From Dyella terrae (lineage in GTDB: Bacteria; Pseudomonadota; Gammaproteobacteria; Xanthomonadales; Rhodanobacteraceae), in NCBI RefSeq assembly GCF_004322705.1, contig NZ_SIZZ01000003.1:124001-188000 (forward strand): DNA of 64,000 bases. Reading direction: 5' to 3'. A model generated the notes under the pieces. It was not told the origin of the DNA. It was given only the letters and a program-made list of their open reading frames with translations, and made no database searches. Position numbers and translations under genes: made by a program. Positions 42,140-54,720 of the stretch are shown here, piece by piece; within the stretch, counting starts at the first letter, position 1, and each line of letters begins with the position of its first letter.

Positions 42140-44317
42140 ATGCGCGCCTCGCTGACGCTTTCTCTTGCCGTATTGCTTGCGCTCGGTGGCGCGGGCACCG
42201 CACACGCCGATGACACCGCCCGCCTCAAGGCGCGCGCGCAGTCGATCACCGTCACGCGCGATGACTGGGGCATCGCCCACGTCCACGGCAAGACCGATGC
42301 CGATGCCGTGTTCGGCATGGCCTACACGCAGGCGGAAGACGACTTCAATCGCGTCGAAACCAACTATCTCAATTCTCTCGGCTGGCTCGCCCAGGCCGAA
42401 GGCGATAAGGCGATCTGGTCCGACTTGCGTCAACGCCTGTGGATCGACACGGCTGAACTCAAGCGCCTGTATGCCAAGAGCCCGGCCTGGTTGCGCGACC
42501 TGATGAATGCGTGGGCCGACGGACTGAACTACTACCTCGCCACGCATCCGGATGTGCACCCGCGCGTTATCACGCATTTCGAACCGTGGATGGCCCTGAG
42601 TTTCACGGAAGGCAGCATCGGCGGCGACATCGAGCGCGTATCGCTGAAGGATCTCCAGGCCTTCTATGGCAAGTCGACCGATCACGTTGCGTTTGTCGAC
42701 ACGCCGTCGAGCTGGGTCGAACCGACGGGCTCCAACGGCATCGCCATCGCGCCCAAGCTCAGCGCCAGCGGCCATGCCTTGCTGCTGATCAATCCGCACA
42801 CCTCGTTCTTCTTCCGCTCCGAACTGCAGATGTCGAGCGACGCGGGACTGGATGTGTATGGCGCCGTGACCTGGGGTCAGTTCTTTATCTACCAGGGCTT
42901 CAACAAGCACATCGGCTTCATGCACACCTCGACCACGGCGGATGCCGTGGATGAGTTCGAAGAAACCATCGTGCGCGACGGCGACAAGCTCAGCTATCGC
43001 TACGGCAAGGAACTGCGTGCCATCACGAGCAAGCCGGTGACCGTGGCCTATCGCAGGGCCGACGGATCGATGGGTGAGCGCACGTTCACGACGTACGCTA
43101 CGCACCACGGCCCTGTCGTGCGCGAGGAAGGTGGCAAATGGGTGACGACGGCGCTGATGAACAAGCCGCTCGAAGCATTGCAGCAAAGTTGGTTGCGCAC
43201 CAAGGCCACGGATTTCACCAGCTTCATGAAGATCGCCGAGCTGAAGGCGAACTCGTCCAACAACACCATATTTGCCGATGACAAGGGCGAGATCGCGTAC
43301 CTGCATCCGCAGTTCATGCCCAAGCGCGACAATCGCTTCGACTACAACAAGCCCGTCGATGGCAGCGATCCGGCCACCGACTGGCAGGGACTGACGCCAT
43401 TGGACGCCTTGCCGCGCCTGCGCAATCCCAACATCGGCTGGATCATGAACACCAACAACTGGCCGTATTCGGCGGCCGGTCCGGACAGCCCGAAGCGCGC
43501 CGACTTTCCGCGCTACATGGACACGGTGGGCGAGAACCCGCGTGGCATTCACGCCACGATGGTGCTGACCGACAAGCGCGACTTCACCCTGTCGTCGCTG
43601 ATCACCTCGGCGTTTGATTCTTACCTGCCCGCGTTCGCGCGCCAGATCCCGATCCTGATCAAGGACTACGACACGCTGCCGGCGAACGATCCGCTGAAGA
43701 AAAAGCTCGCCGGCCAGATCGCCTTGCTGCGGGGCTGGGATTTCCGCTGGGGCATGGCGTCGATGCCGACCTCGCTGGCGGTGTTCTGGGGTGACATCCT
43801 GTGGGACAAGGTGGACAAGTCGGACGCCGAAGAAAGCCTGACCGTGTATGACATCATGGCCGAACGCGCGGGCGCGAAGGCGCGTCTTGACGCACTGGTG
43901 GAAGCGTCCGATCGCCTCGAACAGGACTTCGGCAGCTGGGGCGTGCCGTGGGGCGAGGTCAATCGCTACCAGCGCATCAACGGCGACATTCGCCAACCGT
44001 TCGACGACAGCAAGCCCAGCATCCCTGTGCCGTTTACCTCGTCACGCTGGGGATCGCTGGCATCCTTCGGCGCGCATCGCTGGCCGGGCACGCGGCGGTA
44101 CTACGGCACCAGCGGCAACAGCTTCGTCGCGGCGGTGGAATTCGGTGACAAAGTGCGCGCACGCGCGATTTCCGCAGGTGGCGAGAGTGGTCATCCGGAT
44201 TCGCCGCACTTCAACGACCAGGCCGAGCGCTACACCACGGGCAATTTCCGCGCGGTGTATTTCTGGCCCGAGGATCTGAAGGGTCACGTGGTGCGGACGT
44301 ACCGTCCCGGCGGGTGA
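42140..44317 (+). CDS. Penicillin/acyl-homoserine-lactone acylase family protein
   Basis: 725 aa Ntn hydrolase made as a precursor: signal peptide (ending AHA, about 23), alpha chain, a spacer, then the beta chain that begins at Ser198 in PTG-SNGIAIAPK, the autocatalytic cleavage point and nucleophile. LLINPHTSFFFRSE is the conserved segment after the nucleophile, and IMNTNNWP the oxyanion/Asn region. Family members hydrolyse N-acyl bonds of beta-lactams or acyl-homoserine lactones; the substrate here is open. The ribosome site is weak. Confidence 0.87.
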   Translation: MRASLTLSLAVLLALGGAGTAHADDTARLKARAQSITVTRDDWGIAHVHGKTDADAVFGMAYTQAEDDFNRVETNYLNSLGWLAQAEGDKAIWSDLRQRLWIDTAELKRLYAKSPAWLRDLMNAWADGLNYYLATHPDVHPRVITHFEPWMALSFTEGSIGGDIERVSLKDLQAFYGKSTDHVAFVDTPSSWVEPTGSNGIAIAPKLSASGHALLLINPHTSFFFRSELQMSSDAGLDVYGAVTWGQFFIYQGFNKHIGFMHTSTTADAVDEFEETIVRDGDKLSYRYGKELRAITSKPVTVAYRRADGSMGERTFTTYATHHGPVVREEGGKWVTTALMNKPLEALQQSWLRTKATDFTSFMKIAELKANSSNNTIFADDKGEIAYLHPQFMPKRDNRFDYNKPVDGSDPATDWQGLTPLDALPRLRNPNIGWIMNTNNWPYSAAGPDSPKRADFPRYMDTVGENPRGIHATMVLTDKRDFTLSSLITSAFDSYLPAFARQIPILIKDYDTLPANDPLKKKLAGQIALLRGWDFRWGMASMPTSLAVFWGDILWDKVDKSDAEESLTVYDIMAERAGAKARLDALVEASDRLEQDFGSWGVPWGEVNRYQRINGDIRQPFDDSKPSIPVPFTSSRWGSLASFGAHRWPGTRRYYGTSGNSFVAAVEFGDKVRARAISAGGESGHPDSPHFNDQAERYTTGNFRAVYFWPEDLKGHVVRTYRPGG

Positions 44318-44370: not shown

Positions 44371-46194
44371 TCACCGCTCCAGCACGACCTTCTTCTCGCC
44401 CGCCGCAAAAGGGAGGATGGTGGCGCCATCCTCGCGACCGGACACGACGCGGTTGCGACCATCGCGCTTGGCCTTGTACAAGGCGTGGTCCGCGTTGATG
44501 AGCAATTGCCGGAACTGATAGCCGCTGTATTCGGTGGTGACCACGCCGAGGCTCGCCGAAATATTGATATCGGTCGGCGCGTCGGTGATGCGCGCATTGG
44601 CGATGGCCGCGCGAACTTCTTCCGCGCGGTGCAACGCATGCGCGTGATTGGAGTCGGACAGGATGATCGCGAATTCTTCGCCGCCGAGCCGGCCGAACAG
44701 GTCGCGGTGCCCCAGCAGCGGAATGCATGCATCCACGGCACGCTTGAGTACCTGGTCACCCACGGTATGCCCGTGCGTGTCATTGACCAGCTTGAAATGA
44801 TCCAGGTCGATCAGCAGCAATGCCACCGGCTTGCCGGCTTTCTCCGCATGCCTGAGCAGGCCTTCGGCCGCCTCGATGAAATGCTTGCGGTTGCAGATGC
44901 CGGTGAGGCTGTCCTGGCGCGATAGCCACATGAAACGCAGCTGCGAACGCTTCAGGCGATAGACCCAGAACACGATGAAGGCGATCACCGTGAGCAGCAG
45001 CGTGATGTACAGGCGGCTGTTTTCCACCGCCTTGCGATCGAGCGCCTGTTCCAGCTTCAGGATCACGTTCTGCTTGTTCAGGGCCTGCACTTCCTGGCGC
45101 TTGCCCTGCACCTGCTGGCTGACGATCTGGTAGGCGAGCGCGGTCGCGCTGATGTCGTCCAGGTAGCCCTTGTCGGCCGCCATGAATTTCTCGTGGTAAT
45201 CGAGCGCGTCGCGGTAATCGCCGCGACCCTCGGCGATGCGATAGAGCACGTCATACGCCATGCTCAACGGCTCCGTCACGCCGCTCTTGCTGTTGGATGC
45301 CACGGCCAGGCGTGCGAATTTTTCGGCCGTGGGGACATCGCCCAGCTTCCAGTTCGCCAAGGCCAGCATGGCCTCGAACTGCGCGCTGACCGGAATGTAC
45401 TGGTCGCGCAAGGCGTCGGCGTAGTTGCGTTGAAGCAGGGCCTGGGCTTCGGTGGCGCGACCCATCCGCAGCATCACGCCTGCGGCGTCAGCGCGCATGG
45501 CATTGGCGAACACCGATTGTCCGGAGCTGGTGCACGCGGCAATGCCGTCGCGCAGCATCGGATCTTCCGTGTCGCCCAGCGTGCCGCTGCGATAGCGGGC
45601 GTGAAGCTTGAAGTACATCGCCTTGCAGGTGCTCTCACCCGGCGGGATGTGGGCGAGCATCTGATCGGCATACGAGGTAGCCAGGTCATACTGGCCGGCA
45701 GAGATCAGCAGTTGCGCCGCTTCGCCCAGGCCCTGGTAGCGCACGGCGTCGTCGGTGATCTGCGGCAACTGGTCCTGCATCTGGCTCAGGCGCAGGAACG
45801 CCTCCTGATAGCGCCGGCCGTCGCCAAGAATATTGATGAGTGTTGCCGACGCGCGAAAACGCAGCACGTCGTCGTCCGACTTTTCCAGCACTTCATCGAG
45901 GATGGCGCGCGAACGATCGTAGTCGCCCTGGTACGCCGCCTGCCAACCGCGCAGGTATTGCAGGTGCCAGCGCTGTTCGGACGTCAGCTCGTTGCGACGA
46001 ACGTCGAGCTGGTCGAGCAGGCGGGCGAACTGCGCGTGATCGGAAAGCTTGATGCCACTGTCGGCTCGATCAAGCAGCGACGCCGGCGTCGGTGACACGG
46101 GTACGGTGGGCATGGCCACCGCACCCGCGCCGCATCCCAGGCACAGCAGCCCTGCGAGTCCAAATCGACGCAAGGTCTGGCCGGGATGGTACAT
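44371..46194 (-). CDS. GGDEF diguanylate cyclase with TPR-type sensor region
   Basis: 607 aa. N-terminal signal or anchor helix, about 330 residues of helical TPR-like repeats in the periplasm, one transmembrane helix (LYITLLLTVIAFIVFWVYRL), then a GGDEF domain. The active site GGEEF (504-508) is intact, so cyclic-di-GMP synthesis is expected. The inhibitory RxxD site is GHRD and so lacks its Arg. The ATG is 3 nt after the borosin precursor stop, without a good ribosome site, which indicates translational coupling. Confidence 0.9.
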   Translation of the reverse strand: MYHPGQTLRRFGLAGLLCLGCGAGAVAMPTVPVSPTPASLLDRADSGIKLSDHAQFARLLDQLDVRRNELTSEQRWHLQYLRGWQAAYQGDYDRSRAILDEVLEKSDDDVLRFRASATLINILGDGRRYQEAFLRLSQMQDQLPQITDDAVRYQGLGEAAQLLISAGQYDLATSYADQMLAHIPPGESTCKAMYFKLHARYRSGTLGDTEDPMLRDGIAACTSSGQSVFANAMRADAAGVMLRMGRATEAQALLQRNYADALRDQYIPVSAQFEAMLALANWKLGDVPTAEKFARLAVASNSKSGVTEPLSMAYDVLYRIAEGRGDYRDALDYHEKFMAADKGYLDDISATALAYQIVSQQVQGKRQEVQALNKQNVILKLEQALDRKAVENSRLYITLLLTVIAFIVFWVYRLKRSQLRFMWLSRQDSLTGICNRKHFIEAAEGLLRHAEKAGKPVALLLIDLDHFKLVNDTHGHTVGDQVLKRAVDACIPLLGHRDLFGRLGGEEFAIILSDSNHAHALHRAEEVRAAIANARITDAPTDINISASLGVVTTEYSGYQFRQLLINADHALYKAKRDGRNRVVSGREDGATILPFAAGEKKVVLER

Positions 46195-46197
46195 ACA

Positions 46198-46476
46198 TCA
46201 GGCCACGACAGACGTCAGGCGATCTTCGGCCGGACCTTCCTCGTCCTCGCCTTCACCTTCGCCTTCTTCGTCTTCATCTTCGTCCGGCATCAGCACGGCG
46301 AACATCGGGCCCTTGCCGAGCAAGGCCTGCAACTGTTCACCGTCTTGCGCACGAATGGCATCGCGTACCGGCTGCTCGATCTGGGCTTCGTCCAGCGCCT
46401 GCTCAAGCTCGCTTGCCGCTGCATCGCGCAGGTTGGCGTCTTGACCCATCCGTTCCAGGAAGTCGATCACGTCCAC
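46198..46476 (-). CDS. Split-borosin precursor peptide (SonA-like)
   Basis: 92 aa from a GTG with GGGGG 6 nt upstream. Residues 1-53 form a predicted helical domain (MDVIDFLERMGQDANLRDA ... VRDAIRAQDGEQLQALLG) resembling the borosin binding domain of Shewanella SonA, which has a FFTQLGQDAQL-like start and the same short helices. The probable core begins at PMFAVLMPDED (57-67), aligning with the SonA segment that is methylated, and continues as a Glu/Asp/Gly tail ending TSVVA. Substrate of the methyltransferase encoded 135 nt upstream; the next gene starts 3 nt downstream. An ATG at 46515 would add 13 residues but lacks a ribosome site. Confidence 0.82.
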   Translation of the reverse strand: MDVIDFLERMGQDANLRDAAASELEQALDEAQIEQPVRDAIRAQDGEQLQALLGKGPMFAVLMPDEDEDEEGEGEGEDEEGPAEDRLTSVVA

Positions 46477-46611
46477 GGCATTCCCCCATGTTGTTGGCGG
46501 TGTTTCCCCAAACACGCTTGTCCCATCCAGCGCTGCCGGCCGGGCGGGACCGGGCGATGATAGCCCTTCTTTGCCCCAGGCGCGTTGGGTCGGGTGGGGT
46601 ATGCCTTTTGA

Positions 46612-47412
46612 TCAGGCCGGGCTGCGGTCCAGTTCGGCCAGCCGCTGGCGGATGGCCGGGTCGGGCAGCATGGCGGTCGCCGGGGCAATCGCCAGGGTGT
46701 CGGCCATGGTCATGTCAGCTTCGGGCAAGCGAGCCAGCGTGGTGTGCTCGATCCGCGGACCGTGCACGGGGAGGGTGGCGGCGCGGTAGATGATCACCTC
46801 GTGATCCAGCGGGTAGTCACGCGCCAGCACGTCCACCAGCACCTGGCGATAGGCGGGACCGGTGTGGAACCGCGTCTGGGACCGGTCGCCGACCAGGCCG
46901 GCCTGCCACAGGATCAGCCAGGCGCTGGTGTCGATCCGGCGGCTGTAATAAAGCAGCTGGCTGGCTTCGTAGTGCTGGCAGCCACAGGTGCCCGGATCGA
47001 TGCCAAGGTCCGCATACAGGCAGTCTTCGGCGGAAATCCCTGGCTCCATGTGCGCCCGGTATCCCTCGGCCCGCGCCATCTGGATCGATTTGTGTGGCGC
47101 CCACGCGAACACGCCCGGATGACCGTAAAACACCCCGCATACGCGCTTGCCCGCGCGCACCTCGGTGAGGATCGCCTCGACCATCTCGCGGTAGGTCTGC
47201 ATGCGTTGCTTGCCTTCGGCGTAGTAGCGCTGAAGGCTGCGCACGTCCGGATGCATGCGCTCGACCCATTGCTCGACGAGGCCATCGGACACGGCTGCAA
47301 ACACCACGTCGGCCTGCTCGATATGGCTGCGCGCCAAGGGACTGATATGCGAACCCAGCGTCATGCCAATGCCGACGCAGACAAGGCTGCCTTTGCGTTG
47401 CGGTGTGCTCAC
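46612..47412 (-). CDS. Borosin alpha-N-methyltransferase (SonM/OphMA-type)
   Basis: 266 aa of the tetrapyrrole-methylase fold. It matches Shewanella SonM along most of its length: GSLVCVGIGMTLGSHISPLA (SAM loop; GIG 14-16), catalytic YY..R..TY pattern (Tyr63, Tyr64, Arg70, Tyr74), YGHPGVFAW (96-104), MEPGISAEDCLYADLGIDPG (122-141), YPLDHEVIIY. Such enzymes methylate backbone amide nitrogens of a ribosomal peptide with SAM. No precursor is fused to the C terminus, so this is the split type. GTG start at 47412 has GGGGGAG 5 nt upstream; the longer ATG frame is non-coding in character. Confidence 0.9.
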   Translation of the reverse strand: MSTPQRKGSLVCVGIGMTLGSHISPLARSHIEQADVVFAAVSDGLVEQWVERMHPDVRSLQRYYAEGKQRMQTYREMVEAILTEVRAGKRVCGVFYGHPGVFAWAPHKSIQMARAEGYRAHMEPGISAEDCLYADLGIDPGTCGCQHYEASQLLYYSRRIDTSAWLILWQAGLVGDRSQTRFHTGPAYRQVLVDVLARDYPLDHEVIIYRAATLPVHGPRIEHTTLARLPEADMTMADTLAIAPATAMLPDPAIRQRLAELDRSPA

Positions 47413-47737: not shown

Positions 47738-48361
47738 ATGAAGATTCTTCGTCATCTTCTCCTGCTGTGTCTGATCCTGACACTGGCAGCGTGTGCCTCC
47801 AACGGCATCACTACGCCGCCACCCAAGATCGACCCGGCCACCCAGGCCGTTGACACCTATCGCATCGGCGTCGACGACCAGCTTCAGATCACCGTCTGGC
47901 AGAACCCGGACCTGAGCACGAGTGTGCCGGTGCGTCCCGACGGCAAGATCACCGCACCGCTGATCGGCGACGTCATGGCCGGTGGCAAGACGCCCGAAGA
48001 AGTGGCGGCGGAGATCAAGGACAAGCTGAAGGCGTACGTGCGTGATCCGCAGGTGGCGGTGATCCTCACGGCGCTGCGCAGCCATGAATACCTCTCCCGC
48101 GTTCGCGTCACCGGCGCGGTACGCACGCCCGTGTCGTTGCCGTATCGCCAGGGCATGACCGTGCTCGATGCCGTGCTCGCCGCCGGCGGCACCACCGAGT
48201 TCGCCGCGCCCGATCGCACTGAGCTCTACCGCGAAGACGGCAAGGGCGTGACGACGCCGTACGCCGTTCGCCTGGACAAGGTGCTGCAACAGGGCGACCT
48301 GGCGACCAACTACCCGGTGCAACCGGGCGACGTCATCACCGTGCCATTGCGCGCTTTCTGA
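47738..48361 (+). CDS. Polysaccharide export lipoprotein (Wza/GumB-like)
   Basis: 207 aa. Lipoprotein signal with LAAC near residue 19, then the polysaccharide-export domain (YRIGVDDQLQITVWQNPDLS, VRPDGKITAPLIGDVMAGGKT) and one SLBB domain (VRVTGAVRTPVSLPYRQGMTVLDAVLAAGG). It forms the periplasmic/outer-membrane channel of a capsule or exopolysaccharide system. At this short length it matches the export proteins of exosortase-A-type loci rather than full Wza. It is the first gene of a ten-gene operon. Confidence 0.9.
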   Translation: MKILRHLLLLCLILTLAACASNGITTPPPKIDPATQAVDTYRIGVDDQLQITVWQNPDLSTSVPVRPDGKITAPLIGDVMAGGKTPEEVAAEIKDKLKAYVRDPQVAVILTALRSHEYLSRVRVTGAVRTPVSLPYRQGMTVLDAVLAAGGTTEFAAPDRTELYREDGKGVTTPYAVRLDKVLQQGDLATNYPVQPGDVITVPLRAF

Positions 48362-48401
48362 GCGCGATGACCACAGGGATCGAAAAGGGGGCAGGGGTGC
48401 C

Positions 48402-49946
48402 ATGAATGGCGAACTCACACCGTTTGGCAACATCGTTCCGGCGCTGGTAAGCGAAGGTCGCCGTCGTCGTCTGGCGATGGCCCTGGTCTTCGCCGCCATC
48501 GCGCTGGCGGCGCTGGTCACCGGCATGCTGTGGCCGAAAAAGTACGAGGCATCGACCACGATCCTCGCCCAGGAAAGCAGCATCATCACGCCTATCCTGG
48601 AAGGCGCGGCATCCACGACCGGCAACAAGAACCGCGCCGGCATCGCGCGCGACGTGATCTTTAGCCGCAAGGTGATGGACCAGATACTGGCCGAGGGTGG
48701 CTGGATGTCCACCAACCCGAACCCGATCGAGCAGGACCGCATCATCGAAGGGATCAAGGGCCGCACCCAGGTCAAGACCACCCGCGACAACCTGATCACC
48801 ATCAGCTACTTCGATTCCGATGCCAAGCGTGCGTACGACGTGACGCGCACGTTCGCGCAGCTCTTCATCAGCGAGAGCCTGGCGTCCAAGCAGCGCGAGA
48901 GCCGCGAAGCCTACGAGTTCATCAACAACCAGGTGGATGCGTATCGCAAGAAGCTCACCGATGCGGAAGAGAAGCTCAAGGCGTACCGCGACAGCAATCC
49001 TGACGCGCGTCCCGGCAGCGAAGCGGACACCAACGCCCGCATCGCCACCTTGCGCACGCAGATCGAGAATGCACGCATGGATGCGATGGATCGTCGTTCG
49101 CAGGCAGCATCGCTGAGTGGCCAGTTGAGCGGCGAATCGGAAGTCAACGCGATCCAGACGACGGGCGGCATCTACCAGAGCCGCCTGGCGGAACTGCAGT
49201 CGCAGCTCGACAAGCTGCTGCTCACGTATACCGACGAATACCCGGATGTGATCCGCATCCGTCACCAGATGGATGACCTGCGCAAGCAGATGATTTCGGC
49301 CGACGCCAACCGCCAGGCCGCCCAGGCGCAGGGCATTCCCACGCCGGTCGACAGCGCCGTGCAGATCAATCCGGTGTATCAGCAGATGAAGACGCAGCTG
49401 GTCACCGTGCGTGGTGATGCTGCGGCCGCCTCGGCGCGCCTGTCAGCCAGCGAATCGATGCTTCAAGCGGAGCTTGAGCGCAGCAAGCGCATTGCCAACT
49501 CCGAGGATGTCACCGCCGAGCTGACGCGTGATTACACCGTCAACCGCGACGTCTACCAGGATCTGCTCAAGCGCCGCGAGAACGCCCGCGTGTCGATGAA
49601 CCTCGACGCCGAGCAGCGTGGCCTGACGTTCCTGATCCAGAACCCCGCCGTGATGCCACTGACCCCGTCGGGCCTGCGCTTCCTGCACTTCGGTGCGGCC
49701 GGCATGGCGCTGGCGATCGCGATCCCGCTGGGCCTGCTGTTTGCGCTGGTGCGTTTCGACCCGCGCGTGCGTTCGGTCGAGAAGCTCGAACACGACACCG
49801 GCCTGACCGTGCTGGCGACCATTCCCTTCTATCCCACGCCGCGCGACCGCCGTCGCGACCGCCTGCAGAGCCTGATGATGGTGGCCGCGGTGGTAGGCGT
49901 GGCGGTGGTTTACCTGGCCATTCTCTGGCTGAGGCTCAAGCGATGA
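48402..49946 (+). CDS. Polysaccharide chain-length determinant (Wzz/GumC-like)
   Basis: 514 aa. Two transmembrane helices, one near the N terminus (LAMALVFAAIALAALVTGMLW) and one at the end (MMVAAVVGVAVVYLAILWL), flank a long periplasmic coiled coil (about 160-430). The Wzz signature PLTPSGLRFLHFG-like Pro-rich segment precedes a further helix. It sets chain length and works with the kinase-like protein next to it. AAAAGGGGG and AGGGG lie just upstream of the ATG; its stop overlaps the next start by 4 nt. Confidence 0.9.
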   Translation: MNGELTPFGNIVPALVSEGRRRRLAMALVFAAIALAALVTGMLWPKKYEASTTILAQESSIITPILEGAASTTGNKNRAGIARDVIFSRKVMDQILAEGGWMSTNPNPIEQDRIIEGIKGRTQVKTTRDNLITISYFDSDAKRAYDVTRTFAQLFISESLASKQRESREAYEFINNQVDAYRKKLTDAEEKLKAYRDSNPDARPGSEADTNARIATLRTQIENARMDAMDRRSQAASLSGQLSGESEVNAIQTTGGIYQSRLAELQSQLDKLLLTYTDEYPDVIRIRHQMDDLRKQMISADANRQAAQAQGIPTPVDSAVQINPVYQQMKTQLVTVRGDAAAASARLSASESMLQAELERSKRIANSEDVTAELTRDYTVNRDVYQDLLKRRENARVSMNLDAEQRGLTFLIQNPAVMPLTPSGLRFLHFGAAGMALAIAIPLGLLFALVRFDPRVRSVEKLEHDTGLTVLATIPFYPTPRDRRRDRLQSLMMVAAVVGVAVVYLAILWLRLKR

Positions 49947-50731
49947 ACAGCAACGACGCATCCAACGACCGCAGCCTGCCCGAGAGCATCGAGAGCGTGC
50001 TGGAAGCGGCCGCGCGCAACCTGGAAAAGCGCCCGACCGCCGGCCACAGCATCGCCCGCATGCAGGAGAACGTCGGCCTGCTGGCGCCTCGCCAACTGGA
50101 AGAGCGTCGCCTGATCCATCGCGACGCGTCGGTGCGTCCGCACTCCGATGCCTTCCGTGAAATCCGCACGCGCCTGCTCGGGCTGGGCGGCACGCAGAAC
50201 TTCGTCACGCTCGTCGTATCGGTGAGCCCGCGTTCGGGTTGCAGCTTCGTTGCGCGCAACCTTGCGGCAGCCTTCGCCTTCGACGAGGCCAAGACCAGTC
50301 TGCTGATCGACTGCAACCTGCGTTATCCCAACCAGCATCGAGCCCTGGGCGTCGATCCGACGGCGGGTGGCCTGGTCGACCTGCTCGAGCACCCGGTGCT
50401 GGGCATGGAGCGCATCGTCTATCACACGGGCATCCCGCATCTGCGCCTGATTCCGGCCGGTCGCGTGCACGAGAACAGCGGCGAGTATTTCTCCTCGTTC
50501 CGCATGTCCGCCGTGCTCGACCAGCTGCGTACGCGCTACACGGATCGCTACCTGTTCCTGGACGGCCCGGCGATCAAGGGCTCGCCCGACGCACGCATTC
50601 TTTCGGACCTGGCGGACTTCGTGGTGGTCGTGGCCGGCTACGGCCGCGACACGCCCGCAGCGATCAGCCAGGCGGTAACGCATTTCGATCCGGCCAAGAT
50701 GGCGGGCGTCGTGTTCAACCACGTTCCCTGA
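49943..50731 (+). CDS. Degenerate BY-kinase-like protein
   Basis: 262 aa with the fold of bacterial tyrosine autokinases (CapB/Wzc cytosolic domain). The P-loop reads SPRSGCS (95-101): the ATP-binding Lys of GKS/T is Cys. The second Walker motif is LLIDCNLR and the third LFLDGPA. The C terminus (GVVFNHVP) has no Tyr cluster. It therefore probably cannot act as a normal kinase and may serve as a partner of the chain-length protein. Overlaps the chain-length gene by 4 nt. Confidence 0.82.
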   Translation: MNSNDASNDRSLPESIESVLEAAARNLEKRPTAGHSIARMQENVGLLAPRQLEERRLIHRDASVRPHSDAFREIRTRLLGLGGTQNFVTLVVSVSPRSGCSFVARNLAAAFAFDEAKTSLLIDCNLRYPNQHRALGVDPTAGGLVDLLEHPVLGMERIVYHTGIPHLRLIPAGRVHENSGEYFSSFRMSAVLDQLRTRYTDRYLFLDGPAIKGSPDARILSDLADFVVVVAGYGRDTPAAISQAVTHFDPAKMAGVVFNHVP

Positions 50732-50781
50732 TCGTCCGTGCCATCGACCGAACAACACGATATTGCCATTGGGGAACCTAC

Positions 50782-52107
50782 ATGCTTGCGTCGCGCACAC
50801 TCGCACGCTCGATCGCACTGGCTCTCCTGGCCGCGGCAGGGAGTGCCAGGGCGGCGCAATTCAATTACCAGCTCTACGTGGGCGTGGAGCACAGCGACAA
50901 CATCGCGCTGAGTGACACCAACCGCATCCGCGAGGATGTACTGACGCCCGGTGCCAACTTCACGTACCTGCAACAGGGCTCCACCGTGCAGGCCAACGTC
51001 GCCGGCACCGTGGAGTATCGCGATTACCTGCACGGGAAATTCGATAACCAGTTGCAGGGCCAGCTCGCCGGCCAGGTGAACTGGACCATGATCCCGCAGC
51101 GCCTGGACTTGCTGACCGAAGACTACGCTGGCGTGCAGCCGGTGGACTCGCTCGTGTCCAACGCGCCGGACAACCAGCAGCAGACCAACGTCTTCGCCAT
51201 CGGCCCGATCCTGCATTTCCGCATGGGCGAGGCGATGACGGGCCAGGCGGAGCTGCGCTACGTCAACAGCTATGCGTCGAAGGTGAAGGACTTCAACTCC
51301 TCCCGTGGGGTCGGCGCGCTGCGCTTCTATCGCGACCTCAGCCAGACCGACCAGCTGTCGTTCAACATGGAAGCGCAGCACACCAATTTCGACCAGAGCA
51401 CCAGTGGCCCGGACTACAACCGCTACGAGATCTACGGTCGCTACACGAGCCAGCTGAAAGACCTGGACCTGGACGCCATGCTCGGCTGGTCGCGCATCAA
51501 TTTCGATCAGAACGGTTCGGACTCCAAACCCATTGCGCGCTTCTCGGCGAACTGGCGGGCCTCGCAGCACAACACCTTCATCTTCGCCGGCGCCTATCAG
51601 TTCGCTGATGCCGCGCAGGACATGGCGCAGGCACCGAACCGAGCGGTCGGCACGCTGCCCAACCAGATCAGCGCGCTGAGCACCATGCAGGGCATCAGCG
51701 TCGGCAACGTGGTGGTGAGTTCGCAGGTGTACCTGGAAAAGCGACTCGATTTGACCTACGAGTACCGCACCGAACGCTTCAGTCTGTCGCTGACACCCGC
51801 CTGGCGCGATCTTGATTACATCAACGACCACACGCTGGACCAGCACGGCGGCAGCGTTGGTGTGAGCGGACAGTACCGGATCCGCCCCACCCTGACGCTG
51901 TCCGGCTTCGTCGATGCGGAGCGCCTGACCTATTCGACGCTCGACCGCACCGACAAAACCTATCGCTATGGCATCGACCTGACCCACCAGTTTGCGCAGA
52001 ACTGGAGTTGGCGCGCGGAAGTCACGCACCAGCGGCGCGACAGTACGTTCGTCGGCCAGAGCTACCACGAGACGACGATCTACTTCGGCGTGGTGTATCA
52101 GCGATGA
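50782..52107 (+). CDS. Outer-membrane beta-barrel of the polysaccharide locus
   Basis: 441 aa, signal peptide ending ARA (about 24), then about 16 amphipathic strands to the C terminus (IYFGVVYQR). The pattern FNYQLYVGVEHSDNIALS at the start of the mature part is that of outer-membrane proteins found beside exosortase-A export loci. It may be the export pore or an alginate-type secretin. The ATG at 50782 has GGGGAA upstream; the open frame extends further back but only as a shadow of the kinase gene. The stop overlaps the next start. Confidence 0.85.
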   Translation: MLASRTLARSIALALLAAAGSARAAQFNYQLYVGVEHSDNIALSDTNRIREDVLTPGANFTYLQQGSTVQANVAGTVEYRDYLHGKFDNQLQGQLAGQVNWTMIPQRLDLLTEDYAGVQPVDSLVSNAPDNQQQTNVFAIGPILHFRMGEAMTGQAELRYVNSYASKVKDFNSSRGVGALRFYRDLSQTDQLSFNMEAQHTNFDQSTSGPDYNRYEIYGRYTSQLKDLDLDAMLGWSRINFDQNGSDSKPIARFSANWRASQHNTFIFAGAYQFADAAQDMAQAPNRAVGTLPNQISALSTMQGISVGNVVVSSQVYLEKRLDLTYEYRTERFSLSLTPAWRDLDYINDHTLDQHGGSVGVSGQYRIRPTLTLSGFVDAERLTYSTLDRTDKTYRYGIDLTHQFAQNWSWRAEVTHQRRDSTFVGQSYHETTIYFGVVYQR

Positions 52108-52898
52108 GTGCACAGCTTTCCCATGCCGAGCTGCCGCTGGAAACGCCGTTTTTCTTCGGTCGCAACGGCGAGCTGTTCGGTTTCTACCATCCATCGGACG
52201 ACCGGGCCCGGCGCGCCGCGTTGCTGTGCCCGCCGCTGGGCCAGGACTACATCCGTTGCCACCGCCTGTATCGCCAGCTTGCGCATGCGCTGGCGGAAGA
52301 GGGTTTCGCGGTGCTGCGCTTCGACTACTTCGGCACCGGTGATTCGGCAGGCAGCAGCGATGAAGTCGACTGGGAGCGTTGCATCGACGACACGATTACG
52401 GCCGCCGCCGAGCTGCGCATGCGCAGTGGCGTGAAGTCGGTGGTGGCCTTCGGCGCGCGCCTGGGTGGCAGTCTGGCGCTTGCCGCCGCGCCCGATGCCG
52501 GCTTTGCCGATGTTGTGGCCTGGGATCCGGTGATCGATGGCCCGGCCTATGTCGAGGAACTCGATGAGTTGCAGGCGGCGCTGCGCCAGGACGCCACGCG
52601 CTTCACGCGCCCGCGTCGCGAATCCGATGTCGAACAACAGTGGACCGGCTTTGCCGTCAGTGGCGCGCTGCGTCGCCAGATCCAGCGCCTGCACCTGCAG
52701 CCAGCACTGTCGCCTTCGCTGGTGTTCGATTCGTTGCCCGAGACATCGAAGCACCGTTGGCCGATGCGTGAAGGTGGACCCACCCAGGTCAAGCCGTTGG
52801 CGCCCACGCCGTGGAGCGACCTCCATCGTCTTGAGCTGGCGATCCTTTCGCATCCCCTGATCCAGGGCGTGACGCATCATTTACGGGGGGCGGCATGA
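52104..52898 (+). CDS. Alpha/beta-hydrolase-fold protein with degenerate nucleophile (exosortase-A-associated type 2)
   Basis: 264 aa. FGFYHPSDDRARRAALLCPPLGQDY is the strand and oxyanion region, and LRFDYFGTGDSAG the following loop. The nucleophile elbow, normally GxSxG, reads GARLG (117-121), so Arg replaces Ser. This is the pattern I associate with hydrolase 2 of exosortase-A loci. Function unknown; possibly a binding protein. Start and stop overlap both neighbours. Confidence 0.75.
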   Translation: MSAQLSHAELPLETPFFFGRNGELFGFYHPSDDRARRAALLCPPLGQDYIRCHRLYRQLAHALAEEGFAVLRFDYFGTGDSAGSSDEVDWERCIDDTITAAAELRMRSGVKSVVAFGARLGGSLALAAAPDAGFADVVAWDPVIDGPAYVEELDELQAALRQDATRFTRPRRESDVEQQWTGFAVSGALRRQIQRLHLQPALSPSLVFDSLPETSKHRWPMREGGPTQVKPLAPTPWSDLHRLELAILSHPLIQGVTHHLRGAA

Positions 52899-53731
52899 TG
52901 CGCGAGCGCGCCTTCCGCTTTGGCCGGGCCCAGCATCTGATCGGGATTGCGGGCTTCCCGGCGAGCTTCGCCAGCAACGTGGGCGTGATCGTGCTCAATG
53001 CCGGCCTGGTGCATCGCGTGGGGCCGTTCCGCCTGCATGTTGATCTCACCCGCCGCCTCAATGAGAGCGGCTACGCCACGGTGCGCTTCGATCAGTCGAC
53101 GATTGGCGACAGCGGGTCGAGCGGGGAGTCGCAGACCAAGCTGCAGCAGATCTGCGCCGACGTGAATGACGCCATGACCCTGCTCAAGGAACAGGCCGGC
53201 TGCACGCGGTTTGTCCTGTTTGGCCTCTGCTCGGGCGCCCAGAACGCCCATTCCGTGGCCTGCGTCGACGATAAAGTGGTCGGCGCGATCTTCCTGGACG
53301 GCTATGCCTACCGGACCCTCGGTTACCGCATCCGCCGGTATCTGCCGTCGGTGCTTCAGGTCGATCGCTGGAAGCGTCTTTTGGGCCGGAAAACGGCACC
53401 TACGACAATGAAATCGGCGGGCAGCGAAATCGTCTTCAAGCCACCACCGTCACCGCTACCCGTGGTGCGGGCCGACTACGCCGGCATGGTGGAGCGGGGA
53501 ATGAAGCTCTGCCTGATCTACAGCGGCGGCATCAGCATGTACTTCAACCACGTTCGCCAGTTCCGCGAATGCTTCGGTCGCACCATGAGCACCCCCAACG
53601 TCACCACCAGCTTCCATCGCGAGATCGACCACACCTACGTGCTGGTCAAGGACCGGGCGCGCCTGGTCGATCGCGTCCAGGGCTGGCTGGAGCAGAACTT
53701 CCCCATTGCCCATGCAGGATCCTCGCCATGA
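52895..53731 (+). CDS. Alpha/beta-hydrolase (exosortase-A-associated type 1)
   Basis: 278 aa. VIVLNAGLVHRVGPFRLHV is the oxyanion region, and VRFDQSTIGDSG follows. The nucleophile elbow is GLCSG (110-114), which places Cys112 at the nucleophile position with Ser113 next to it. IDHTYVLVKD near the end supplies the His. It looks like hydrolase 1 of exosortase-A loci. It overlaps the preceding hydrolase and galE by 4 nt each. Confidence 0.77.
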   Translation: MMRERAFRFGRAQHLIGIAGFPASFASNVGVIVLNAGLVHRVGPFRLHVDLTRRLNESGYATVRFDQSTIGDSGSSGESQTKLQQICADVNDAMTLLKEQAGCTRFVLFGLCSGAQNAHSVACVDDKVVGAIFLDGYAYRTLGYRIRRYLPSVLQVDRWKRLLGRKTAPTTMKSAGSEIVFKPPPSPLPVVRADYAGMVERGMKLCLIYSGGISMYFNHVRQFRECFGRTMSTPNVTTSFHREIDHTYVLVKDRARLVDRVQGWLEQNFPIAHAGSSP

Positions 53732-54720
53732 ATGGTGTTCTGGTTACCGGCGGAGCCGGGTACATCGGTAGTCACGTCGTGCAGCAGCTGGCCGCGCGCG
53801 GCGAACGCGTCGTCGTGATCGACAATCTCTCCACCGGCTTCCGCGAGTCCGTGCGCGATGCCGAGCTGATCGTCGGCAACGTGGGCGACCCGGCGCTGGT
53901 GTCGCAGGTGCTTCACGAACACCGCATCGATGCCGTGATGCACTTCGCCGCGCATACGGTGGTGCCGGAGTCCGTACGCGATCCGCTCAAGTATTACGGC
54001 AACAACACCTGCAACACCGAGAACCTGCTTGCCTGCTGCGCCGACGCCGGCGTGGACAAGTTCATCTTCTCATCGACGGCGGCCGTCTATGGCATGACCG
54101 AAAGCGGCATCGCCGACGAAGACACGCCGACCCAGCCGATCAATCCCTACGGCACCTCGAAGCTGATGTCGGAAACCATGCTGCGCGACTACTGCGCCAC
54201 CGGCGCGATGCGGCATGTGATCCTGCGCTACTTCAACGTCGCCGGCTGCGATCCCGAAGGCCGCATCGGTCACTCGACCCCGCACGCCACGCTGCTGGTG
54301 AAAGTGGCCTGCGAACACGCCATCGGCAAGCGCCCGAGCCTGGCGATCTACGGCACCGACTACAACACGCCCGACGGCACGGGTATCCGCGACTACATCC
54401 ATGTGGAAGATCTGGCGGCCGCGCATCTGCGCGCACTCGACCATCTGCGCGAAGGCGGCAAGTCGCTCACGCTCAATTGTGGTTACGGCCATGGCTACAG
54501 CGTGCGCGAAGTCATCGACGCCGTGTCGCGTGTCAGCGGCGCGCGCATGAACGTGGTCGAGCAGCCGCGCCGCGACGGCGACACGCCCATGCTGATCGCC
54601 CGTTCCACGCGCCTGCAACATGCGCTGGCCTGGCAGCCGCGTTATGACGACCTCGATTTCATCGTTCGCACCGCTTTCCTTTGGGAGCAGCAACTCGCAC
54701 GACGGGCCGAGCATGCGTAA
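53728..54720 (+). CDS. galE: UDP-glucose 4-epimerase
   Basis: 330 aa short-chain epimerase. VLVTGGAGYIGSHV binds NAD, and SSTAAVYG with NPYGTSKLMSE gives the Ser/Tyr-x-x-x-Lys catalytic set (YGTSK). RYFNVAGCDPEGRIGHSTP and RDYIHVEDLA are characteristic of GalE. It interconverts UDP-Glc and UDP-Gal, or the acetylated pair, to supply polysaccharide precursors. ATG overlaps the hydrolase stop. Confidence 0.93.
   Translation: MNGVLVTGGAGYIGSHVVQQLAARGERVVVIDNLSTGFRESVRDAELIVGNVGDPALVSQVLHEHRIDAVMHFAAHTVVPESVRDPLKYYGNNTCNTENLLACCADAGVDKFIFSSTAAVYGMTESGIADEDTPTQPINPYGTSKLMSETMLRDYCATGAMRHVILRYFNVAGCDPEGRIGHSTPHATLLVKVACEHAIGKRPSLAIYGTDYNTPDGTGIRDYIHVEDLAAAHLRALDHLREGGKSLTLNCGYGHGYSVREVIDAVSRVSGARMNVVEQPRRDGDTPMLIARSTRLQHALAWQPRYDDLDFIVRTAFLWEQQLARRAEHA

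Follow-up and report, generated by a model that had tools for sequence, protein, structure and literature searches.

A split borosin pair in Dyella terrae is encoded beside a TPR-GGDEF sensor, suggesting a link to c-di-GMP signaling

In a 64,000-nucleotide stretch of the Dyella terrae genome (contig NZ_SIZZ01000003.1, positions 124,001 to 188,000; hereafter the window), three genes follow one another on the minus strand: those for a methyltransferase of the SonM type, a precursor of the SonA type, and a membrane sensor predicted to make c-di-GMP. By homology, the first two genes constitute a type IV split borosin, and the recurrence of all three in related genomes gives good support to the view that they form one genetic unit. 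The sensor gene, absent from the original prediction, is the component of the locus that is most informative. The association of the pair with a membrane sensor predicted to make c-di-GMP suggests a role in cell signaling for the little-understood borosin family.

Results

The methyltransferase gene (46612..47412, minus strand) runs from a GTG at 47412 to a TGA at 46612 and encodes 266 aa, predicted from SonM homology to be a backbone alpha-N-methyltransferase. A G-rich, Shine-Dalgarno-like stretch is found 5′ of the GTG in this gene, as in the precursor gene. When the protein was compared with the PDB, the SonM chains were the best matches (E 1.1e-77, 50% identity over 250 aa), followed by borosin enzymes of the OphMA type. 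Pfam returned TP_methylase alone, while the nine NCBIfam models matched all fell far below their cut-offs, the best scoring 30 bits against 525. Because no NCBIfam cut-off was reached and SonM is closer, a CobA/CysG-type tetrapyrrole methylase, i.e., a cobalamin or siroheme enzyme, was rejected; the original prediction, which had named a closer kinship to CobA/CysG than to SonM as grounds against itself, is upheld on this point. Its catalytic pattern was likewise recovered: residues Y64, R70, and Y74 correspond to SonM Y58, R67, and Y71, whose catalytic roles are described in sections of PMC8429565, and are invariant across a 30-row alignment. As had also been claimed, the precursor is not fused to the enzyme, the two being distinct minus-strand genes.

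The precursor gene (46198..46476, minus strand; GTG at 46476, TGA at 46198) encodes 92 aa, of which residues 1 to 54 (46315..46476) make up the predicted borosin binding domain. Searched against the PDB as a single sequence, the precursor gave nothing credible (best E 0.36). When 25 related precursors, 24 from family-type loci and one from Steroidobacter (L083), with no SonA orthologue among them, were combined into a profile, SonA chains occupied ranks 1 to 7, a weak match (best E 0.006) but to SonA only; the SonA match of another profile, A4, was not counted as a test, as that profile contained SonA orthologues. The family precursor model also picked up a close SonA orthologue in locus L242 (E about 6e-7 within that set of open reading frames [ORFs]). 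In an AlphaFold model of the precursor and methyltransferase as one joined chain, the methyltransferase part matched SonM chains best and the start of the precursor formed five helices (block pLDDT 63 to 91), resembling the five-helix bundle of SonA described in sections of PMC8429565. The core and tail had pLDDT below 50, the pTM was 0.61, and OphMA chains could be aligned to the full model only with an rmsd of about 20 Å. The SonA-like binding domain that had been proposed is thus backed by both the profile and the model.

In SonA, the methylated residues are L63 and I65, and the matching stretch of the window precursor is the short, hydrophobic, core-like segment PMFAVLMP (residues 57 to 64; 46285..46308), in agreement with the position proposed for it. 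Since prolines 57 and 64 lack an amide hydrogen, putative N-methylation is restricted to M58 to M63; of the range of residues 58 to 64 expected previously, only P64 has to be given up. In an alignment of 125 family precursors, 111 of the 122 rows filled at position 64 have this proline; small or charged residues come next, and an acidic tract after them.

By composition, the acidic tail of the window precursor covers residues 65 to 85 (46222..46284). The earlier description of it as almost pure Glu/Asp/Gly is accurate for residues 65 to 81, of which 13 of 17 are Asp or Glu and the other four Gly, whereas residues 82 to 92 are ordinary. An acidic tract, defined as at least 6 Asp/Glu per 12-residue stretch, was present in 125 of 130 precursors situated before a sensor, so the tail is typical of the lineage and not special to this precursor, and a reading of it as an unusual case is not supported. 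It is absent from SonA, from the close relatives of SonA, and from the precursors of a genus with fused sensors (see below). The precursor composition count retained 113 of 138 sequences, after removal of duplicates and of sequences that had fewer than 65 aa or were truncated at the end of a contig. Among the precursors, those of loci L010, L011, L021, L154, and L155 are 88 aa long and have a repeated core-like stretch, e.g., CCLLVPAQVRCLLVPG, and may be two-core precursors; the one in locus L076 (3297-4133) has a lysine-rich instead of an acidic tail.

The sensor gene (44371..46194, minus strand) encodes 607 aa with a signal peptide, a TPR domain, a membrane helix, and a GGDEF domain. Its ORF begins three bases past the precursor stop and lacks a clear Shine-Dalgarno sequence, which suggests that its translation is coupled to that of the precursor. 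All three genes share one reading frame broken only by TGA codons, to which we attach no meaning. The TPR domain (residues 28 to 392; 45019..46113), predicted to be periplasmic, was recognized with AlphaFold and Foldseek, the Pfam TPR matches being below cut-off; the mean pLDDT of the model was 93.7 (residues 28 to 395). It is followed by a membrane helix assigned by hydropathy (residues 393 to 411; 44962..45018) and by the GGDEF domain (residues 427 to 582; 44449..44916; PF00990, E 3.3e-41), in which the GG[DE]EF signature is intact as GGEEF, so that c-di-GMP synthesis is predicted. Among 73 full-length relatives of the sensor, GGEEF and the membrane helix were each found in 73, a signal-peptide-like N terminus in 63, and the RxxD inhibitory-site pattern in 65; by our reading, the window protein has GxxD at that site. 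When the TPR model was searched with Foldseek, complexes of the eukaryotic LGN protein came first, and Rap peptide-pheromone receptors made up 11 of the 50 hits listed, with moderate resemblance (TM 0.52 to 0.60). This likeness to peptide-binding superhelices is a generic TPR resemblance and is only suggestive. A gene for a Penicillin amidase family protein (42140-44314; Pfam E 3.5e-116) lies downstream of the sensor gene in convergent orientation.

Conservation of the locus was assessed in 110 loci around relatives of the methyltransferase, fetched as two partly overlapping sets of 80 and 30. Homologous methyltransferase-precursor pairs were present in 105 of the 110, some loci representing the same genome twice; this recurrence, together with the SonM match, eliminates chance or an annotation artifact as the origin of the pair. 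The sensor was located downstream on the same strand in all 69 related loci that extended far enough (at least 2.5 kb) to show it, while the other neighbors in the window returned in just 0 to 2 of the 80 loci. The divergent polysaccharide export/synthesis-type genes at 47738-54717 (Poly_export, BBP2_2, epimerase) are not conserved near borosin genes; as relatives of these genes were found close to the methyltransferase in 1 of 80 loci, a function tied to these adjoining genes was discarded. No PADLOC match was obtained for the methyltransferase, precursor, or sensor, and anti-phage defense was also dismissed. In 63 loci with flanks on both sides, counted with overlapping frames set aside by position, no family beyond the three recurred in more than 13, and no recurrent protease, transporter or export, immunity-like, or metal-linked gene was found.

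Across 233 genomes of the family, the methyltransferase was detected in 162 and the sensor in 158; both were present in 157, the methyltransferase only in 5, the sensor only in 1, and neither in 70. The sensor-only genome (G081) is an 86% complete assembly with no methyltransferase at E 1e-10. The five methyltransferase-only genomes belong to one genus and encode signal peptide, TPR, GGDEF, and methyltransferase as a single polypeptide, with a precursor ORF directly upstream. Six such fusion copies were identified (L212 4306-6921, L213 twice, L214, L215, and L216), one of them without a TPR match. The source genome itself has two borosin methyltransferases and two sensors, each methyltransferase having its own precursor and sensor; the second cassette lies outside the window (L116 9511-12592; C3 about 198000-201100) and comprises a precursor with the core QVTQTPGHEEE and a TPR-GGDEF gene.

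The most constant feature of these loci is the precursor beside the sensor, with the methyltransferase gene before, after, divergent, fused, or elsewhere. A precursor ORF was found upstream of the sensor in 29 of the 30 best sensor-similarity matches (L117-L146). This is a fairer figure than the 131 of 153 obtained for all sensors sampled, because the larger sample is biased by including loci fetched by methyltransferase. Of the 22 sensors without a precursor, 7 are second copies behind another sensor, 4 have weak precursor matches, and 11 have none, although a precursor-like ORF is visible by eye at two of the 11; on a tree of the 153 sensors, precursor presence requires 7 changes. TPR-GGDEF relatives without a precursor in L163-L165, L176, L179, L181, and L217 are from one genus, and five of them cluster on the sensor tree. 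In 40 further stretches, hand-chosen around tandem or isolated sensors, 21 had precursor and sensor without a methyltransferase in the stretch, 13 had all three, and 6 had no precursor. Eight loci have one methyltransferase followed by two precursor-sensor units, whose order varies while the pairing is constant; when precursors were swapped within these loci, r 0.90 was reached by the true arrangement only, of 256, a result to which shared descent contributes, as all eight are from one genus. Tail charge and TPR charge were not correlated (n = 130, Spearman −0.08, P = 0.38), so binding of the acidic tail to a basic TPR groove by simple charge is not supported.

Beyond the family, an order-level sample yielded a methyltransferase match in 61 of 247 genomes. 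In 20 loci from other families, hand-chosen from these 61 genomes, the methyltransferase was beside a TPR-GGDEF gene in 16 and a TPR-histidine kinase gene in 4, with a precursor or precursor-like ORF, some recognized by eye only, directly before the sensor. In L255 and L257 the precursor comes first, then the sensor, then the methyltransferase; the precursor-like ORF of L247 follows the strand of the sensor. L256 (5122-6775) has a tandem pair of methyltransferase genes before a TPR-histidine kinase. At one chosen locus, the methyltransferase is 92% identical to SonM and a TPR-GGDEF gene lies directly after the SonA-like gene, and therefore close relatives of the founding borosin also have the sensor. 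A class-level sample gave six matches outside the family, two of them with a TPR sensor (L202 with both GGDEF and kinase kinds, L204 with a kinase); no TPR sensor was found near the other four (36 to 45% identical), whose neighbors were searched without a Pfam scan. Two of these four distant methyltransferases (L206 and L207) are followed by an apparent major facilitator-like transporter gene, recognized by eye.

Discussion

We propose that the borosin product is a dedicated ligand of the neighboring TPR sensor and sets its cyclase activity, so that the peptide controls c-di-GMP, a proposal to which we give about an even chance. The three head-to-tail genes would then act as a signaling cassette. 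As homology suggests, the methyltransferase would bind the helical domain of the precursor and methylate at least one backbone amide between M58 and M63; the product, which would be the methylated core either alone or together with the acidic tail, would bind the TPR domain of the neighboring sensor and set its cyclase activity, steps for which gene linkage argues. More speculatively, the leader would be removed and the peptide would reach the periplasm through machinery encoded elsewhere. Because TPR input and precursor remain constant while the output varies between GGDEF and histidine kinase, the TPR domain is the product's likely target. Methylation, release, export, and binding are all predicted steps, and the main weakness of the proposal lies in topology: the precursor has no recognizable secretion signal, though the TPR domain of the sensor is predicted to be periplasmic, and the genes are not accompanied by a recurrent protease or transporter gene.

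It is for this reason that we entertained a cytoplasmic switch, in which the precursor is never secreted and either the precursor-methyltransferase complex or the methylated precursor gates the cyclase or kinase from the cytoplasmic side. The lack of a recurring protease or transporter fits such a switch, as does the fusion of the methyltransferase C-terminal of GGDEF in five genomes, which places the enzyme on the cytoplasmic side and is compatible with a purely cytoplasmic role too; a precedent is RcbB, a TPR-GGDEF protein that is under the control of a partner encoded in the same operon, according to portions of PMC12282931. We nonetheless consider it unlikely, if the least so of the alternatives, since variation of the output with retention of TPR input and precursor suggests that contact is made with the input domain, which is predicted to be periplasmic. 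Slightly less probable still is that the sensor stands upstream, regulating the making of a borosin with another job, such as an antibiotic, metal ligand, or surface product, and that the linkage is regulatory only. Biosynthetic genes commonly have sensors encoded beside them, and histidine kinase versions do exist here, though GGDEF yields c-di-GMP and not direct gene control; against this, the precursor-sensor pairing holds without a nearby methyltransferase in 21 of the 40 chosen stretches, two sensors of one locus each have their own precursor, and no export or immunity-like gene recurs.

The idea raised originally, in which the acidic tail signals a product class of its own or a peptide that binds metals or cations, seems to us improbable. 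The density of Asp and Glu over residues 65 to 81 and the retention of acidic tracts in nearly all precursors would suit it, yet tail-less precursors, namely SonA, those of its close relatives, and those of the fused-sensor genus, retain the same sensor partnership, one precursor (L076) carries lysines instead, and no metal-linked gene recurs. If the product is indeed a sensor ligand, the tail becomes a matter of receptor specificity, release, or solubility rather than the sign of an odd natural product. A dedicated sensor partner would give the borosin family of RiPPs a function along with a direct test of it, and orphan TPR-type cyclases would gain a candidate ligand. A wider possibility, which we hold tentatively and with less confidence than the proposal for this locus, is that split borosins are the first backbone-methylated peptide signals. 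One shared methyltransferase would mature a number of precursors, each of which would be the ligand of a dedicated TPR receptor in the periplasm, and c-di-GMP and a phosphorelay would be interchangeable outputs.

Split borosin types V to X are reportedly defined in two papers of 2022, by Cho et al. and Imani et al. Both are named, as papers on split borosin types, in a part of PMC11285071. Among openly licensed PubMed Central papers, none was found for borosin with diguanylate, for backbone N-methyltransferase with GGDEF, or for SO1480, and PMC11395268 was the sole match for borosin with GGDEF; the terms GGDEF and cyclase are absent from the main text of PMC8429565. According to the legend of figure 1 in PMC11395268, the architectures of borosins include one with a GGDEF domain, so a borosin type of this kind is already known. 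Such an architecture is thus in print, while a wider borosin-sensor link of the kind suggested by the gene neighborhoods above was not found in openly licensed PubMed Central papers.

Several known systems share parts of this arrangement. Rap/RNPP receptors, which are cytoplasmic regulators of Gram-positive bacteria, have a peptide-binding TPR superhelix that the window TPR model resembles; unlike these unanchored proteins, the window sensor starts with a putative signal peptide and contains both a membrane helix and a cyclase domain. With SonM/SonA of Shewanella oneidensis, the type IV split borosin described in sections of PMC8429565, the window pair shares a separate enzyme and precursor, the catalytic residues, and a binding domain followed by a core, but the window precursor is longer (92 aa versus 71 aa for SonA) and its core is bounded by prolines and followed by an acidic tail. 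The GGDEF borosin type of PMC11395268, compared through its legend text, includes GGDEF in the borosin architecture, as do the five genomes with fusions, whereas the window cyclase is a separate gene. In RcbAB of Vibrio vulnificus, the partner is itself a TPR protein, unlike the window's precursor, and peptide methylation is not mentioned in the portions of PMC12282931 that describe it; there, too, however, a protein encoded in the same operon determines how active the TPR-GGDEF protein is, as proposed here, in that this partner can relieve the repression that the TPR part is able to exert on the cyclase.
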